A DNA stretch of 64,000 bases from a bacterium (GTDB lineage: Bacteria > Joyebacterota > Joyebacteria > Joyebacterales > Joyebacteraceae). Both the position numbers and the translations under genes were made by a program. Positions 41,528-47,628 of the stretch are shown here, one piece after another. The stretch spans positions 1 to 64,000 of the forward strand of contig JALGZK010000004.1 in assembly GCA_025774935.1 (NCBI GenBank), in the 5' to 3' direction. Numbering within the stretch: the first letter of the stretch is position 1; each line of letters opens with the position of its first letter. The notes below the pieces were generated by a model, which ran no database searches, had not been told where the DNA came from, and worked only from the letters and a program-made list of their open reading frames with translations.

Positions 41528-42163
41528 CTAGTCGATCACGCGCAGGAGATCCGACAGGAGGAAGTAGAGCCTTCCGATGAGGAGCGAGATACGCGCCATC
41601 AGCGTGTAGCCAAACGACGCGCCGAAGCTGACCATGATGAAGACGATTCCGATCTTCGCGGTAACTCCGAGGACGCCCTTGTGGGCCTTCGAGAAGTAGA
41701 AGTAGAGGATCGTCGTCACGACGCCGACCACGAGTATCAGGTTGTTCAGGCTCACGAGGTTGAACCCGGTCATCGGGAGGAGCGTCGCCTGGACCTGCGG
41801 CACGACGTAGCCCTGGAGGTTCGCCGTGATGCCCAGGCCGGCACCCACGCCGACCGTGAATGCGATCGGCCAGCGGGAGAGCCACGCGGTCTTCGGGAAC
41901 CACCGCGAGAGCATGATCACGCCGAGAGCGGCTGGGACGATCAGGATCCACTTCTCGACACCGGTCTCTTCCATGAAAGGGGTGACGAGCATCGGCTCGA
42001 CGTCGAAGAACGCCACGTAGATGAGCCAGTAGCCGGCCGACACGCCGACGTAGAGGTGCTCGGCAAGCTTGTAGAACGGGTTGTCCTTGTAGAGGAACGA
42101 CAGGATCGCGAGGGTCAGGAACCCCGCGAGCCACGTTCCGATGATCATGCCGAGCGAACCCAT
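41528..42163 (-). CDS. six-helix membrane protein of the DUF6754 module (D)
   Basis: A 211-residue polytopic membrane protein, last gene of the four-gene module. About six helices: IIGTWLAGFLTLAILSFLY, LYVGVSAGYWLIYVAFFD, ILIVPAALGVIMLSRW, IAFTVGVGAGLGITANLQGY, LNNLILVVGVVTTILYFYF and IGIVFIMVSFGASFGYTLMA. Notable is the polar loop FYKLAEHLYVGVSAGYW after helix 1, which suggests a conserved core motif. I recognise it only from its association with DUF6754-type neighbours. ATG 42163 follows GGGAGACGG, 50 bases after the previous stop. Confidence 0.65.
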   Translation of the reverse strand: MGSLGMIIGTWLAGFLTLAILSFLYKDNPFYKLAEHLYVGVSAGYWLIYVAFFDVEPMLVTPFMEETGVEKWILIVPAALGVIMLSRWFPKTAWLSRWPIAFTVGVGAGLGITANLQGYVVPQVQATLLPMTGFNLVSLNNLILVVGVVTTILYFYFSKAHKGVLGVTAKIGIVFIMVSFGASFGYTLMARISLLIGRLYFLLSDLLRVID

Positions 42164-42213
42164 TCCGTCTCCCTGCCCGCGCGCCGCCGCACCCGCTCAC
42201 CGGGGCGCGCCAA

Positions 42214-43071
42214 CTACGCGGTCTCGCCGCTTCTCTTGCGCTTGCCCTTCGTGAAGTAGTAGCCGAGGTTCCCGAGGACGATGAACCCGATCACGAGCAG
42301 GTGTCCCCACTGCTGCGCGGGCATGCCCCGCGTGCCGAGGCCAGGCTGCCCGATGAGTGTCTCGTATTCCGCGGCGCCCTTGAGTCCGCCGATGAGGCCC
42401 TCGATCTGCCCGGACTGAAGATACGGATACGCGTCGGGAGCCATGACGGCCGTCGTCCCGAACGTCATCTTCTGATTGAAGCGGGCCTGCGCGTAGCGGA
42501 CCCAGTAGTCGATCACCGCGCCGTGCTCGAACCCGAAGAGGAGGTCGATGTCCGCGTACGAGTGGATGTCCCGCGTGACCTCCATGTCCCGGATCGGGGT
42601 GCCCTGGTAGTCGGTTCCGAAGATGTCCTCGATCTCGCGCCCCATGGCGATCATGACCGCGATGTAACCGGGCCGGTACCCCAGGTTGACGTAGTCGACC
42701 CCGTACTCGGCGTCGTACTCGGCTGCGACCTGCTCGAGCGCGGTGTGGCCGAGGGGGAGGCCGATCGCGATGTGCCCGAGCATGATGACCTTGACGTCCT
42801 TGGCGAACGCCTGCCTCAGGACCGACCGGAGCATCGGCATGAGCTCGGGCGCCGACGTGGCGTCGAAGTCGATCGAGACCATGAGATAGTCGCCGGCCTC
42901 GAGGGCCTCAACGGACTCGTGCGCGCTGATGACGGGCGCGGTCGGCGGGATCTCGCCGCCCACGGAGATGATGAGGGGGAGGGTCACCACGACGAGGAGG
43001 ATCAGGAAGATGATCCTCCTGTCCATGTCGTCCATGACCTCCCAGAAGCTTCTCCGGGCACCCTTGTCCAC
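42214..43071 (-). CDS. membrane-anchored alpha/beta protein of the DUF6754 module (C)
   Basis: A 285-residue protein with an amino helix (RIIFLILLVVVTLPLIISVGG, about 19-39), a soluble middle domain and a carboxyl helix (HLLVIGFIVLGNLGYYFTKG). The middle has the alternation of a Rossmann-like fold (DYLMVSIDFDATSAPELMPM, VKVIMLGHIAIGLPLGH, YGVDYVNLGYRPGYIAVMIAMG, IDLLFGFEHGAVIDYWVRYA, LQSGQIEGLIGGLKGAAEYE). No catalytic motif of a known family is visible. GTG 43071 follows GAGGGAG. Both ends anchored in the inner membrane suggest the domain faces the periplasm, like that of its DUF6754 neighbour. Confidence 0.65.
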   Translation of the reverse strand: MDKGARRSFWEVMDDMDRRIIFLILLVVVTLPLIISVGGEIPPTAPVISAHESVEALEAGDYLMVSIDFDATSAPELMPMLRSVLRQAFAKDVKVIMLGHIAIGLPLGHTALEQVAAEYDAEYGVDYVNLGYRPGYIAVMIAMGREIEDIFGTDYQGTPIRDMEVTRDIHSYADIDLLFGFEHGAVIDYWVRYAQARFNQKMTFGTTAVMAPDAYPYLQSGQIEGLIGGLKGAAEYETLIGQPGLGTRGMPAQQWGHLLVIGFIVLGNLGYYFTKGKRKRSGETA

Positions 43072-43113
43072 CGGTTCTCCCTCGGGGGCGGCGTCCGCAC
43101 CGCCCGTGCGCTG

Positions 43114-43746
43114 CTACGAGAGGTAGCTCCTCTCGATCCCCAGGATGATTCGGAGCGACATCGAGACGGCTCCGAGCGCGGCCCCGATCTGGATCCCTCG
43201 CTTCGCCGCGAGCTGCGGCACGTCCATGATCCACTCCTGCGCGACCGGGAAGAACTGCGAGATGGCGGCCCCGATCGGGATCCTCCCGAGCATGACTATG
43301 ACGGCCGAGACGAGGAGCAGGGTCGCGACCCAGTTCCTCGCGCGGAACGCGCGGTACGAGGCCGAGGCGATGAAGAACGCGAGGAGCGCGAACATCGTCG
43401 CCTGGAGCGGGACGATCGCGTACGTGTAGATGAACATGAACGGCGACTGGATGTGGAAGGGGCTCCCGTACTGGACGCGGCCGATGACGCCGACGACGAC
43501 CGTCGCGACGAGGCCGGCCAGGAGCGCGAGGCTGAACGCCCAGCCCTCACGCGTCCGCGCGACCCGGCGTGCGTGTGCCCTGATGAGGCTGTCGACGCCG
43601 AGAAGCATGGTGAACCCGGCCACGATCGCGTACCACACGAGGAGCCGCTGCTCGAGTTCGCCGAACGGAGCGTGGGGGACGAAGAACGATATGACGAGGA
43701 ACGTCCCCGTGAGGAATGTGATGACGAGCGGCACCGTTCGCTTCAT
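43114..43746 (-). CDS. six-helix membrane protein of the DUF6754 module (B)
   Basis: A 210-residue membrane protein: VPLVITFLTGTFLVISFFVP, VWYAIVAGFTMLLGVDSLI, WAFSLALLAGLVATVVVGVIG, MFIYTYAIVPLQATMFALLA, VATLLLVSAVIVMLGRIPIG and a last weak helix LGAVSMSLRIILGIERSYL. Positively charged loop RAHARRVARTREG after helix 2 predicts a cytoplasmic side. I know no family name. ATG 43746 follows AGAAGGACG, 16 bases after the DUF6754 gene stop, so it is certainly in the same operon. Confidence 0.65.
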   Translation of the reverse strand: MKRTVPLVITFLTGTFLVISFFVPHAPFGELEQRLLVWYAIVAGFTMLLGVDSLIRAHARRVARTREGWAFSLALLAGLVATVVVGVIGRVQYGSPFHIQSPFMFIYTYAIVPLQATMFALLAFFIASASYRAFRARNWVATLLLVSAVIVMLGRIPIGAAISQFFPVAQEWIMDVPQLAAKRGIQIGAALGAVSMSLRIILGIERSYLS

Positions 43747-43762
43747 GGTTCGTCCTTCTGGC

Positions 43763-45046
43763 CTACCCGAACCAGGAGTGCATGACGTCGAACACCTTCG
43801 TCAGGAGCGAGCTTCCGTCCGGCCGAGCGATGTAGCCGATGGTCCCGACGACGAACGCGAGGAGGATGAAGTAGACGATCCACAGCTTCGCGAGGTCCTG
43901 TCCCTTCAGGCTCCCGAGCATCACCGGCTCCCGTGACAGGTAGCTCGAGGCCGCGAAGAGCTCCTCGCCGATGAGCGTGTAGTCGCACGCGGCGACGAAG
44001 AACGGGAGCTGCGACGTCTCCTTCGTTCCCGCGATCTGGATGGCGCCGATCGAGTGGCCCGTTTCTGCTAGGATGAGCGACTCCGCGTAGAACGTCCCGA
44101 CGAGGAAGACCGCCTCCGGGCGGTCCCGCAGCATCATGCCGTCGACGCCGGCCGTGTAACCGAACTGGTCGTACGTGAGATAGGCGACGCGCGCCGGGTC
44201 GTAGTCGTCCGGCCGGCCTATCTCGGTGTACGCCTGCTTGACGATCTCCTGCGCCGTCGTCATGACGATCGGGTCGGCGCATGGAACGTCGAGCGGCGTG
44301 CCGTGCCGGGCAACCCGCTTCGCCACGTGCCCGAGAATCGTGAGCGCGGCGAGCGTGCCGACCTCGCTCACGGTCTCGATGCCCGGCACGAACAGAACAG
44401 GCCGTCCCATCTCCGTGGCGCGTCCGACGGCGTCGTCGACCGCCTCAAGCCCGGGGATCTTCCTGACGAAGAGCTCGTCTCCGACTCTCGCCCTGCGGAT
44501 GTAGTACAGGACGGCGCCGCAGAAGAGCACCGCCATGATGAGGATGCTCAGGCGGCCCATCGCGACCCACTGCGCTGTGGCGACGGCCGCCTCGCTCGGT
44601 TCGGAGTCGGTGCTGCCGAGGGGGGTCTTCGTACGGACGACGTATTGGTACGGAACGCCATCCTCTGCCTCGGTGTCGGTGTACCCGGTGTCGGTGGGGG
44701 GGACCTCGCCGAGAGACGAGGGTTCTTCGCCCGGCGCGTAGCGCAGGATCTCGTACGCCAGGATCCCGATGTCGGTACCGCGTGCCTCGAGAGGCTCCCA
44801 AGTGACCTGAATCGAGCCACCCCCGTCGTCCGGCAGGTCCTCGGCCGTCACGTTGCAGGCCGTCGGGAGGAGCGTCTCGTCGAACTCGCCGAGCCCGACT
44901 GCCTCCGGGGCCCCGCCGATCTCTCCGGACCCGGTCTCCAGGGGGTCTTCCTGCGCGAAGGCGTCCCCGCCGAAGATGGCGAGGACGCCCGTCGCTAGCA
45001 CTGCCGCGAGCGCGACCGCCCGCATGTCACATTTGGGAAAGCTCAC
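43763..45046 (-). CDS. fibronectin-III plus DUF6754 membrane protein (A)
   Basis: A 427-residue protein heading the four-gene module. Signal-like start (ALAAVLATGVLAIFGGDAFA), a fibronectin type III domain (about 65-160: IQVTWEPLEARGTDIGILAY, VPYQYVVRTKTPLGSTDSEP), a helix (LSILIMAVLFCGAVLYYI), then the DUF6754 domain (about 190-390) with VLFVPGIETVSEVGTLAALT, DPIVMTTAQEIVKQAY, MMLRDRPEAVFLVGTFYAES, GSIGAIQIAGT-like and FVAACDYTLIGEELFAASSY segments, and a final helix (IVYFILLAFVVGTIGYIA). The function of DUF6754 is unknown. Start GTG 45046 has only a close AGAGG; ATG 45025 is an alternative. It lies 42 bases after the lysine transaminase gene and is probably co-transcribed. Confidence 0.75.
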   Translation of the reverse strand: MSFPKCDMRAVALAAVLATGVLAIFGGDAFAQEDPLETGSGEIGGAPEAVGLGEFDETLLPTACNVTAEDLPDDGGGSIQVTWEPLEARGTDIGILAYEILRYAPGEEPSSLGEVPPTDTGYTDTEAEDGVPYQYVVRTKTPLGSTDSEPSEAAVATAQWVAMGRLSILIMAVLFCGAVLYYIRRARVGDELFVRKIPGLEAVDDAVGRATEMGRPVLFVPGIETVSEVGTLAALTILGHVAKRVARHGTPLDVPCADPIVMTTAQEIVKQAYTEIGRPDDYDPARVAYLTYDQFGYTAGVDGMMLRDRPEAVFLVGTFYAESLILAETGHSIGAIQIAGTKETSQLPFFVAACDYTLIGEELFAASSYLSREPVMLGSLKGQDLAKLWIVYFILLAFVVGTIGYIARPDGSSLLTKVFDVMHSWFG

Positions 45047-45088: not shown

Positions 45089-46453
45089 CTAGAGCGCGGC
45101 GATCGCCTTCTCGAGAGCGCTCAAACCCTCGTCGATCTCGTCGCCGGACACGTTGAGCGGCGGCCTGAACCGCACCGTGACCGCGCCGCACGGGAGCGCC
45201 ATCGTTCCGTTCTCGCGCAGCTTCGCGAGCGCGTCCCCGCGCATCTCGGACGTCGGGAGGTCGAACGCGCACATGAGGCCTCTGCCGCGGACGTTCGATA
45301 CCTTTTCGCCCGTCGCCTCGGCGACCGTCTCGAGTCCGTCACGGAGCCGGCCGCCCATTGCGGCCGCGTTCGCGACGAGCTTCTCGTCGTCGATGATCTC
45401 GAGGTACCGCTGGCACCTGACCATGTCGACGAGGTTCCCGCCCCACGTGGAGTTGATCCTGGATGATAGCTCGAAGACGTTCCCCTCGACCTCCTTCACG
45501 CGGTCGCTGACCATGATGCCGCAGACCTGGGTCTTCTTGCCGAACGCGGCGATGTCCGGGACGACGTCGAGCTGCTGGAACGCCCACATCGTTCCGGTGA
45601 GGCCCATTCCGGTCTGAACCTCGTCGAACACGAGCATGATCTCGTTCTTGTCGGCGATCCGCCGGAGTTCCTTGAGGAAGTCGGAGCGGAAGTGGTTGTC
45701 GCCGCCCTCGCCCTGGATCGGCTCGATGATGATCGCAGCGATGTCGTCGGGATTTTTCTCTATCGCGCTCTCGATCTGCGCGAGCGAGTCCGCCTCGGAC
45801 GCGATCACCTCATCGAGGCTCTTTCCCTCCATGGGGAAGATCATCTTCGGGTTCAGAACGCGCGGCCAGTCGAACTTCGGGAAGTACTGGGTCTTCCTCG
45901 GGTCGAACGTGTTCGTCAGCGCGAGCGTGTAGCCGGTCCTCCCGTGGAACGCCTGCTCGAAGTGGATGACCTTCGTCCCCTTGAGCGCGTACTCGGGCGT
46001 GTCCGGCTTATTGACGCCCCTGGTCAGGTTCTTCCGGACCTTCCAGTCGAACGCGGTCTTGAGCGCGTTCTCCACCGCCAGCGCTCCGCCGCTGATGAAG
46101 AACAGGTTCTTGAGCTCGCTCGTCGCGGCCAGGCGACCGAAGGTGTCGACGAACTCCGCCATCTCCGTCGTGTACAGATCGGAGTTGGACGGCTTGTTCA
46201 CGGCCACCCTGCCAAGCTTCGCGACGAACTCCGGCTCCGTGACTCTGGGGTGGTTGAACCCCACGGGCGACGATGCGAAGCACGTGAAGAAGTCGAGGTA
46301 CCTCTTCCCTGCGCGGGAATCGTAGAGGTAGCTCCCCTTGCTCTTCTCGAGATCGAAGACGATGTCGAATCCGTCCGCGAGCATGTGCGCCGCGATCGTC
46401 TCGTGCACCTTCGCTGGAGCGACACTCCTGGTGTTGGTGCGGGTCTCAGTCAA
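45089..46453 (-). CDS. lat: L-lysine 6-transaminase
   Basis: A 454-residue class III PLP aminotransferase that moves the epsilon-amino group of lysine to 2-oxoglutarate, giving the semialdehyde that cyclises to piperideine-6-carboxylate. Lat-type features: YLYDSRAGKRYLDFFTCFAS, PVGFNHPR, NKPSNSDLYT, EQAFHGRTGYTLALTNT, IIIEPIQGEGGDNHF, MLVFDEVQTGMGLTG and AAFGKKTQVCGI, the motif holding the PLP lysine. The TTG at 46453 behind CAGGAGGAAGCG is the start; longer frames upstream are untranslated leader. It has its own promoter and a hairpin leader. Lysine catabolism or osmolyte/antibiotic precursor supply is likely. Confidence 0.88.
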   Translation of the reverse strand: MTETRTNTRSVAPAKVHETIAAHMLADGFDIVFDLEKSKGSYLYDSRAGKRYLDFFTCFASSPVGFNHPRVTEPEFVAKLGRVAVNKPSNSDLYTTEMAEFVDTFGRLAATSELKNLFFISGGALAVENALKTAFDWKVRKNLTRGVNKPDTPEYALKGTKVIHFEQAFHGRTGYTLALTNTFDPRKTQYFPKFDWPRVLNPKMIFPMEGKSLDEVIASEADSLAQIESAIEKNPDDIAAIIIEPIQGEGGDNHFRSDFLKELRRIADKNEIMLVFDEVQTGMGLTGTMWAFQQLDVVPDIAAFGKKTQVCGIMVSDRVKEVEGNVFELSSRINSTWGGNLVDMVRCQRYLEIIDDEKLVANAAAMGGRLRDGLETVAEATGEKVSNVRGRGLMCAFDLPTSEMRGDALAKLRENGTMALPCGAVTVRFRPPLNVSGDEIDEGLSALEKAIAAL

Positions 46454-46677: not shown

Positions 46678-47628
46678 TCAGGGGACGTCCGGGGACGTCG
46701 CGGGAGCCTTGCGGCGCGGGAAGAGAAGCTCGAGGAGGGCGGGCGCTATCGGGTGGGCGGTGAGCTTTTCGCCGACCCGCGACGGCTCGAGGACGCCGTC
46801 CTCGGTAACGATGCTCGTGACGAGCGACGTCGGCACGGACTCGAAGTACCGGTTCTCGACGGCGACGCCGCCAGGCCGGTCGTCGAGGATCTCGTGCTCG
46901 TCCATGAGCCTGCCGGGGTCGCCCCGGAGTGCTACGGGTATGAACTTGTCGAGGAGGGCCGCCACGTGGAACGGGACGTCCGCCTCCCTCGCCGCGAGCG
47001 CGAGGGCGTACGTGCCGGTCTTGTTGACGAAGCTCTCCTCGGAGACGCTGTCCGCCCCGACGAGCACGAGGTCGCACCCCTCTACGAGCGAGGGGAGCGC
47101 CGCGTCCGTCACGACGGTCACGGGAATGTTCCAGGCGGGGAGGCTCGTCGCGAACTCGACGCCCTCCCGCGCGGGGCGCGACTCGGAGACGAACACGCGG
47201 ACCTCCTTTCCTCCGCCCGCGCACTGGGTCAGGACGGCCCTCACGCTCTCGCTCGCGCTCAGGGTCGCCACCGTCCCGCCCTCGGGCAGGAGGGCCGCCC
47301 CCTCCTTGCCCAGACACTCGAGAGACGCCTCCGCGAGCTCCCACGCACGGTGGCACTGCATGAAGACCGCGCCGCGCGCGACGTCGGGTGACAGCCCGGA
47401 GAGGACCGTGCGCTCGGTGGCCGCGAGAACGCGACCGACGAGGTTCACGATCGACGCCATCTCGCGCTTGGCTTCGATGAGCTCACGGCACGCATCCAGG
47501 AGCTCGTCCCAGAATGAGCCGGGGTCCTCGGCCGTCGATGCCTCCGCGAACTGCGCGAGCCTGCGGGCGGCCATGCCGGTCAGGAGCGAAGCGCTCGATC
47601 GTGTGTCCTCCGCTATCTCCTCGAACAT
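46678..47628 (-). CDS. eIF2B alpha/beta/delta-like sugar-phosphate isomerase
   Basis: A 316-residue member of the initiation-factor-2B-related family that includes methylthioribose-1-phosphate isomerase and ribose-1,5-bisphosphate isomerase. Signatures: VRVFVSESRPAREGVEFA, IPVTVVTDAALPSLVEGCDL, VLVGADSVSEESFVNKTGTY and VPFHVAALLDKFIP, with the Asp in VGAD and the NK-x-GT loop conserved. The helical amino end (RSSASLLTGMAARRLAQFAE) is more like the ribose-1,5-bisphosphate type than MtnA, which usually carries a longer amino region with GC-x-TG. No RuBisCO, AMP phosphorylase or other methionine-salvage gene is present. ATG 47628 follows GGAAAGG. Confidence 0.75.
   Translation of the reverse strand: MFEEIAEDTRSSASLLTGMAARRLAQFAEASTAEDPGSFWDELLDACRELIEAKREMASIVNLVGRVLAATERTVLSGLSPDVARGAVFMQCHRAWELAEASLECLGKEGAALLPEGGTVATLSASESVRAVLTQCAGGGKEVRVFVSESRPAREGVEFATSLPAWNIPVTVVTDAALPSLVEGCDLVLVGADSVSEESFVNKTGTYALALAAREADVPFHVAALLDKFIPVALRGDPGRLMDEHEILDDRPGGVAVENRYFESVPTSLVTSIVTEDGVLEPSRVGEKLTAHPIAPALLELLFPRRKAPATSPDVP

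Follow-up and report, generated by a model that had tools for sequence, protein, structure and literature searches.

The described systems closest to the locus reported here are the Pfam family PF20539 (DUF6754), which has no assigned function, the GlmL/MutL family (PF13941, NF040745, NF040744), Nqr/Rnf and TonB-ExbB-ExbD. We analyzed a stretch of 64,000 nucleotides (positions 1 to 64,000 of contig JALGZK010000004.1, assembly GCA_025774935.1; hereafter, the window) from a bacterium of the Joyebacteraceae, where a DUF6754 gene (A) is followed on the minus strand by three genes (B, C and D) for membrane proteins. DUF6754 was absent from the papers in the literature searched (subscription papers and preprints lay outside its scope) and searches for the module came back empty, in agreement with an earlier interpretation of these letters (the sequence-only reading), which knew of no described function. 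The cluster noticed in that reading is real and part of a widespread, apparently undescribed membrane system. We consider it rather probable that the four products make up a complex run by a shared soluble unit, composed of a MutL-family protein and a barrel-sandwich/KOW protein (BSH).

The A-B-C-D cassette and its distribution

Gene A (43763..45046, minus strand) encodes a protein of 427 amino acids (aa) with a signal peptide, a fibronectin type III (fn3) domain, a membrane helix, a predicted cytoplasmic DUF6754 alpha/beta domain and another membrane helix. It matched PF20539 with 381 bits (cut-off 27) at residues 157-404, and is a full-length member over the 257-position domain. The Pfam match to fn3 was below threshold; the AlphaFold model and a Foldseek search (hits to fn3 domains and a poor one to Nir2) indicate that the domain is real, and the previous naming of A as a fibronectin III/DUF6754 protein is upheld. 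Genes B (43114..43746, minus strand, 210 aa) and D (41528..42163, minus strand, 211 aa) code for proteins of about six membrane helices each, a count already proposed that is consistent with the alignments and agrees roughly with a simple hydropathy scan. The product of gene C (42214..43071, minus strand, 285 aa) presents a membrane helix, an alpha/beta domain predicted to lie outside the inner membrane, and a second membrane helix. For B, C and D, neither Pfam nor NCBIfam gave a match above cut-off (the sole Pfam match of D, DUF3704, covers 10 residues and is below it), and the three had no sequence relatives among PDB sequences; in these same collections, no known transporter family, ABC-type or other, was matched.

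Gene order was surveyed at 175 A genes that had 2.6 kb or more of sequence downstream, a few loci being the same contig counted twice. In 166 of them, B, C and D followed A on the same strand and in that order, with intergenic gaps (n=498) of 3 bp in the median and of 100 bp or less in 97% of the cases; the window cassette fits this closely spaced, one-strand pattern, and the loci departing from it mostly had a duplicate A gene, an A gene standing alone or an interrupted frame. The A-B-C-D order is far beyond chance. The sequence-only reading had made its case depend on finding homologues of B, C and D beside DUF6754 in other phyla, and the survey speaks strongly in its favour. Because B, C and D keep this company in other phyla, A to D are likely to form one inner-membrane complex.

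Among 386 relatives, mostly from other phyla, DUF6754 was found in 113 genomes and C in 113, both together in 110 and each alone in three, so that presence or absence agrees in 380 (the Fisher tests of co-occurrence treat genomes as independent, which related genomes are not). Outside the window's own phylum the module was present in 93 of 366 sampled genomes, about a quarter, and within it DUF6754 appeared in all 20 genomes examined. The listed matches to the C profile, with lineage names as in the database records and taken from 80 of at least 571 loci, belong to Eisenbacteria, WOR-3/Stahlbacteria, TA06, Latescibacterota, Edwardsbacteria, Zixibacteria, GN15, Calditrichota and Deltaproteobacteria. 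Uncultured lineages, among them WOR-3, Zixibacteria, Eisenbacteria and Latescibacterota, make up most of the carriers, which is probably why the system has escaped notice. It is retained even in a 0.9-Mb genome. Viral contigs yielded no C and plasmids neither A nor BSH, so nothing points to a mobile or viral origin. As to anti-phage defence, the PADLOC models gave one marginal match (E-value 0.05) and lent it no support.

The window's genome (3.24 Mb) carries three complete cassettes, the one in the window and two in tandem on a different contig (L004). The tandem cassettes come after a MutL-family gene and a BSH gene, and they are followed by lipoate-ligase-like and TonB-receptor-like genes. 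Gene by gene, the identity between these cassettes is about 37-59%, and the lat-ABCD and MutL-BSH-ABCD-ABCD arrangements (lat, L-lysine 6-transaminase gene) are kept in the window's phylum wherever the contigs reach. The two other cassettes had been overlooked in the sequence-only reading, as had MutL, BSH/KOW and two small families, E and F, as members of the system. In a partner-swap test with 23 multi-cassette loci, a good part of them related loci of the window's phylum and hence not fully independent, the observed distance correlation was never reached in 999 shuffles (p<=0.001 for all six gene pairs). Judging from these distances, where several cassettes share a locus each has evolved as a unit. 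In L095 (3263-8237) three extra tandem C genes stand beside a cassette, which indicates that C alone can multiply.

The A, B, C and D genes of the window are spaced by 16, 42 and 50 bp, and directly upstream lies lat (conserved part at 45089..46417, minus strand), whose end at 45089 is 42 bp before A; the span and gaps first given for the four genes, and their distance from lat, were exact to the base. The lat product matched TIGR03251 with 652 bits against a cut-off of 521, and the whole-genome profile match spans 45101-46417. Upstream of lat, positions 46678-47628 (minus strand) encode a relative of eIF2B-type isomerases whose best match, the ribose 1,5-bisphosphate isomerase family, is below cut-off. 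Promoter and terminator scans gave results near chance.

The soluble partners and the predicted arrangement in the membrane

The partner MutL protein has a PF13941 domain and about 600 aa, and a strong match to it was present in 106 of the 113 genomes with A. The BSH profile matched 108 genomes, nearly the set with MutL, with one marginal match (G227, E-value 4e-4) in a genome without A and C. Both accompany A-D, in many cases within one operon. Genomes with four or five C genes (for example G153, G148, G120 and G315) carry one MutL and one BSH, and the soluble unit therefore appears to serve several cassettes. Several genomes, that of the window included, have a second MutL fused to a BSH-like part in a single frame of 900-1000 aa and away from the ABCD cassettes (L190:7943-10651 on contig C16 of the window's genome; also L191-L196 and L202). 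The small families E and F often precede MutL or A, and were found in 22 and 17, respectively, of 53 family-level lineages.

Topology was deduced by the positive-inside rule from the numbers of Lys plus Arg flanking the helices, averaged over the families. In A the mean rises from 0.9 such residues ahead of the first helix to 4.8 behind it, an asymmetry that places DUF6754 in the cytoplasm and fn3 outside. In C the means are 3.4 ahead of the first helix, 1.7 behind it and 3.5 behind the second, a pattern that puts the alpha/beta domain outside. The proposal that A and C each hold a soluble domain between two helices stands for both proteins, with the addition that the two domains are predicted on opposite sides of the membrane. 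The AlphaFold models (predicted local distance difference test scores of 86 for A and 94.7 for C) depict six strand-helix units per soluble domain, with the second membrane helix coming after them. The shared order in A and C hints at a possible duplication that left copies of one domain on either side of the membrane; the profile comparison of A with C was not significant, and that of B with D disclosed no homology. A fold search with C against the PDB yielded nothing at an E-value of 0.001 or less, just generic Rossmann-like folds. The two conserved segments quoted in the sequence-only reading are present: across phyla, AGT....QLPFF is kept in A but the inner E is not, and YPYLQxGQLxGLLGGLKGAAEYE is kept in C.

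The families also vary in architecture. In the genomes without Omp85 (L200:2232-6758 and L198:10079-12199) the cytoplasmic N-terminal part of C is greatly extended and contains dozens of PxWL(R/Q) repeats, to which a zinc ribbon is added in L200. Some D proteins bear insertions of several hundred residues between membrane helices (L218:10642-12768, L220:7357-9564), and D1 of the window's genome (L004:10692-11531) has an extra membrane pair.

A proposed function and its rivals

We believe that ATP-dependent solute movement by an A-D complex with a shared soluble unit is the best explanation as a whole, with a probability of about 40%. In this machine B and D would form the membrane core, C would hold its alpha/beta domain outside the inner membrane, and A would hold the DUF6754 domain in the cytoplasm, usually with fn3 outside. 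The soluble unit, a long MutL-family protein of the ASKHA (actin/hexokinase) fold plus the barrel-sandwich/KOW protein, often with E and F, would act on the DUF6754 face, and one such unit would be used by several ABCD cassettes per genome. ASKHA proteins are of the ATPase type. The most likely task would be to move or gate, at the expense of ATP, a small solute linked to amino-acid metabolism; the lat, glycine-cleavage and TonB-ExbBD neighbours lead us to put transport of this kind first among the possible functions, although we hold that assignment doubtful.

The lat gene is joined to the window-type cassette throughout the window's lineage, and a second link occurs in the 0.9-Mb genome, an unrelated one of another family, where lat lies 3 bp after D (L216:4485-5834). 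Four lineages have complete glycine-cleavage genes directly upstream of F-E-MutL-BSH-ABCD (L039:1136-5673; L230:1112-5452), and a lipoate-ligase-like gene downstream. LplA was considered as a partner, since it stands beside cassettes in several lineages, but its tie is probably to the glycine-cleavage genes in that operon. In WOR-3/Stahlbacteria (L120, L132, L136, L139, L140, L142, L154, L164 and L187) ABCD heads a conserved run that continues with DUF4388 and several small proteins without a name and ends in ExbB, two copies of ExbD, TonB and, in many cases, a TonB receptor.

Several points weigh against solute movement by such a machine. The metabolic neighbours vary by lineage and are missing from most cassettes: L-lysine 6-transaminase (LAT) occurs in 24 of 80 module genomes, and in 22 of those 24 it is not beside a listed cassette, being mostly on another contig. 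A conserved pocket at the C-terminal strand edges was looked for and was absent (p=0.83 for A and p=0.16 for C), and the fold searches with A and C found no match to a transporter or binding protein. The operon, its co-inheritance, the charge-based topology, the shared soluble unit and the MutL-BSH-like fusions are observed; the physical A-D complex, the contact of MutL, BSH and E with the DUF6754 face, transport, the class of substrate and ATP use by MutL, assumed from its family, are what we infer.

Some of this evidence suits a role in envelope assembly or force transmission, where MutL/BSH would drive changes through DUF6754 and B/D to the outer domains, moving or building envelope components and not small solutes. 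Residue conservation runs throughout DUF6754 and not at one edge, which points to broad, many-sided protein contacts more than to a simple pocket; the earlier argument that the soluble domains are too conserved for mere scaffolds is at most tentative, conservation being spread over DUF6754 and marking no pocket. Omp85 was present in 77 of 80 module carriers, some cassettes head the ExbB, ExbD, TonB and TonB receptor runs described above, and some A proteins bear large extra outer regions. However, the three carriers without Omp85 keep a module, the most divergent of all and in G350 still contiguous as E-A-B-C-D-MutL; the TonB linkage is limited to few lineages, and A-D are unrelated to known assembly machines in Pfam, NCBIfam and PDB sequences. 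We regard this explanation as unlikely but as a serious rival, the strongest of the alternatives.

Somewhat less credible, but a serious rival too, is transmembrane sensing without solute movement, C sensing a ligand outside, A relaying the signal and MutL/BSH being the responding switch. Soluble domains on either side of the membrane would suit such a relay, paralogous cassettes with one cytoplasmic unit resemble many receptors with one output, and in WOR-3 DUF4388 and other uncharacterised soluble genes lie downstream of ABCD. Yet the multi-helix proteins B and D exceed what a sensor needs, and no kinase, cyclase or regulator domain recurs beside the core.

The constant union of lat and cassette in the window's lineage, together with the 3-bp link in the unrelated small genome, also brings up a lysine-related module, whose transported or sensed compound would be lysine or the L-lysine 6-transaminase product. 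The LAT counts given above, with a place beside the cassette in just two lineages, and the fact that the other cassettes of the window's genome have no LAT make this improbable.

Comparison with known systems

A widespread membrane system without known function represents a real gap in bacterial physiology and, with the core genes, the topology and the shared MutL/BSH unit now defined, the question becomes directly testable. If true, the use of one ASKHA/barrel-sandwich unit by many membrane cassettes would add a new means of driving or controlling membrane proteins.

PF20539 takes in A only, and B, C, D, BSH, E and F fall outside. The GlmL/MutL family shares its MutL domain with the partner protein, but GlmL has about 460 aa and the module MutL is longer and scores far below the GlmL and Or-4 cut-offs (226 bits against 475 for NF040745, and 166 against 204 for TIGR01319). 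Although the module MutL falls within PF13941, it is hardly conceivable that it is a reactivating factor for B12-dependent mutases, as GlmL, with the membrane genes as simple operon-mates, given these scores, a co-occurrence of MutL and A-D far tighter than shared transcription alone would give, and the distribution of glutamate mutase E, which has no match in the window's genome, is above cut-off in one of 43 module genomes tested (there adjoining a separate short MutL) and stands beside glmL in four of seven short-GlmL genomes tested. A glutamate-mutase role of the module MutL was rejected because of the sub-cut-off GlmL scores and this near-absence of mutase E. TonB-ExbB-ExbD is encoded downstream of ABCD in WOR-3/Stahlbacteria, but its sequences are unrelated to those of A-D and most cassettes are not beside such genes. 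Nqr/Rnf differs in that the module has no flavin or iron-sulfur subunit and no family match, B and D contain no Cys that is invariant or nearly so, and the recurrent neighbours include no redox subunit; the module likewise has two membrane proteins of about 210 aa and about six helices plus a barrel-sandwich protein, and the fused BSH-like part weakly matches NqrA_N (E-value 0.008).

Set against these systems, F-E-MutL-BSH-A-B-C-D may tentatively be seen as an undescribed class of energised inner-membrane machine, in which two alpha/beta domains with the same strand-helix order would lie on either side of a membrane core made of two proteins, and up to six parallel cassettes would be driven by a single ASKHA/barrel-sandwich unit. 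The module occurs widely among candidate phyla and would be ancient, having persisted in a lineage without Omp85 with E, A, B, C, D and MutL side by side.

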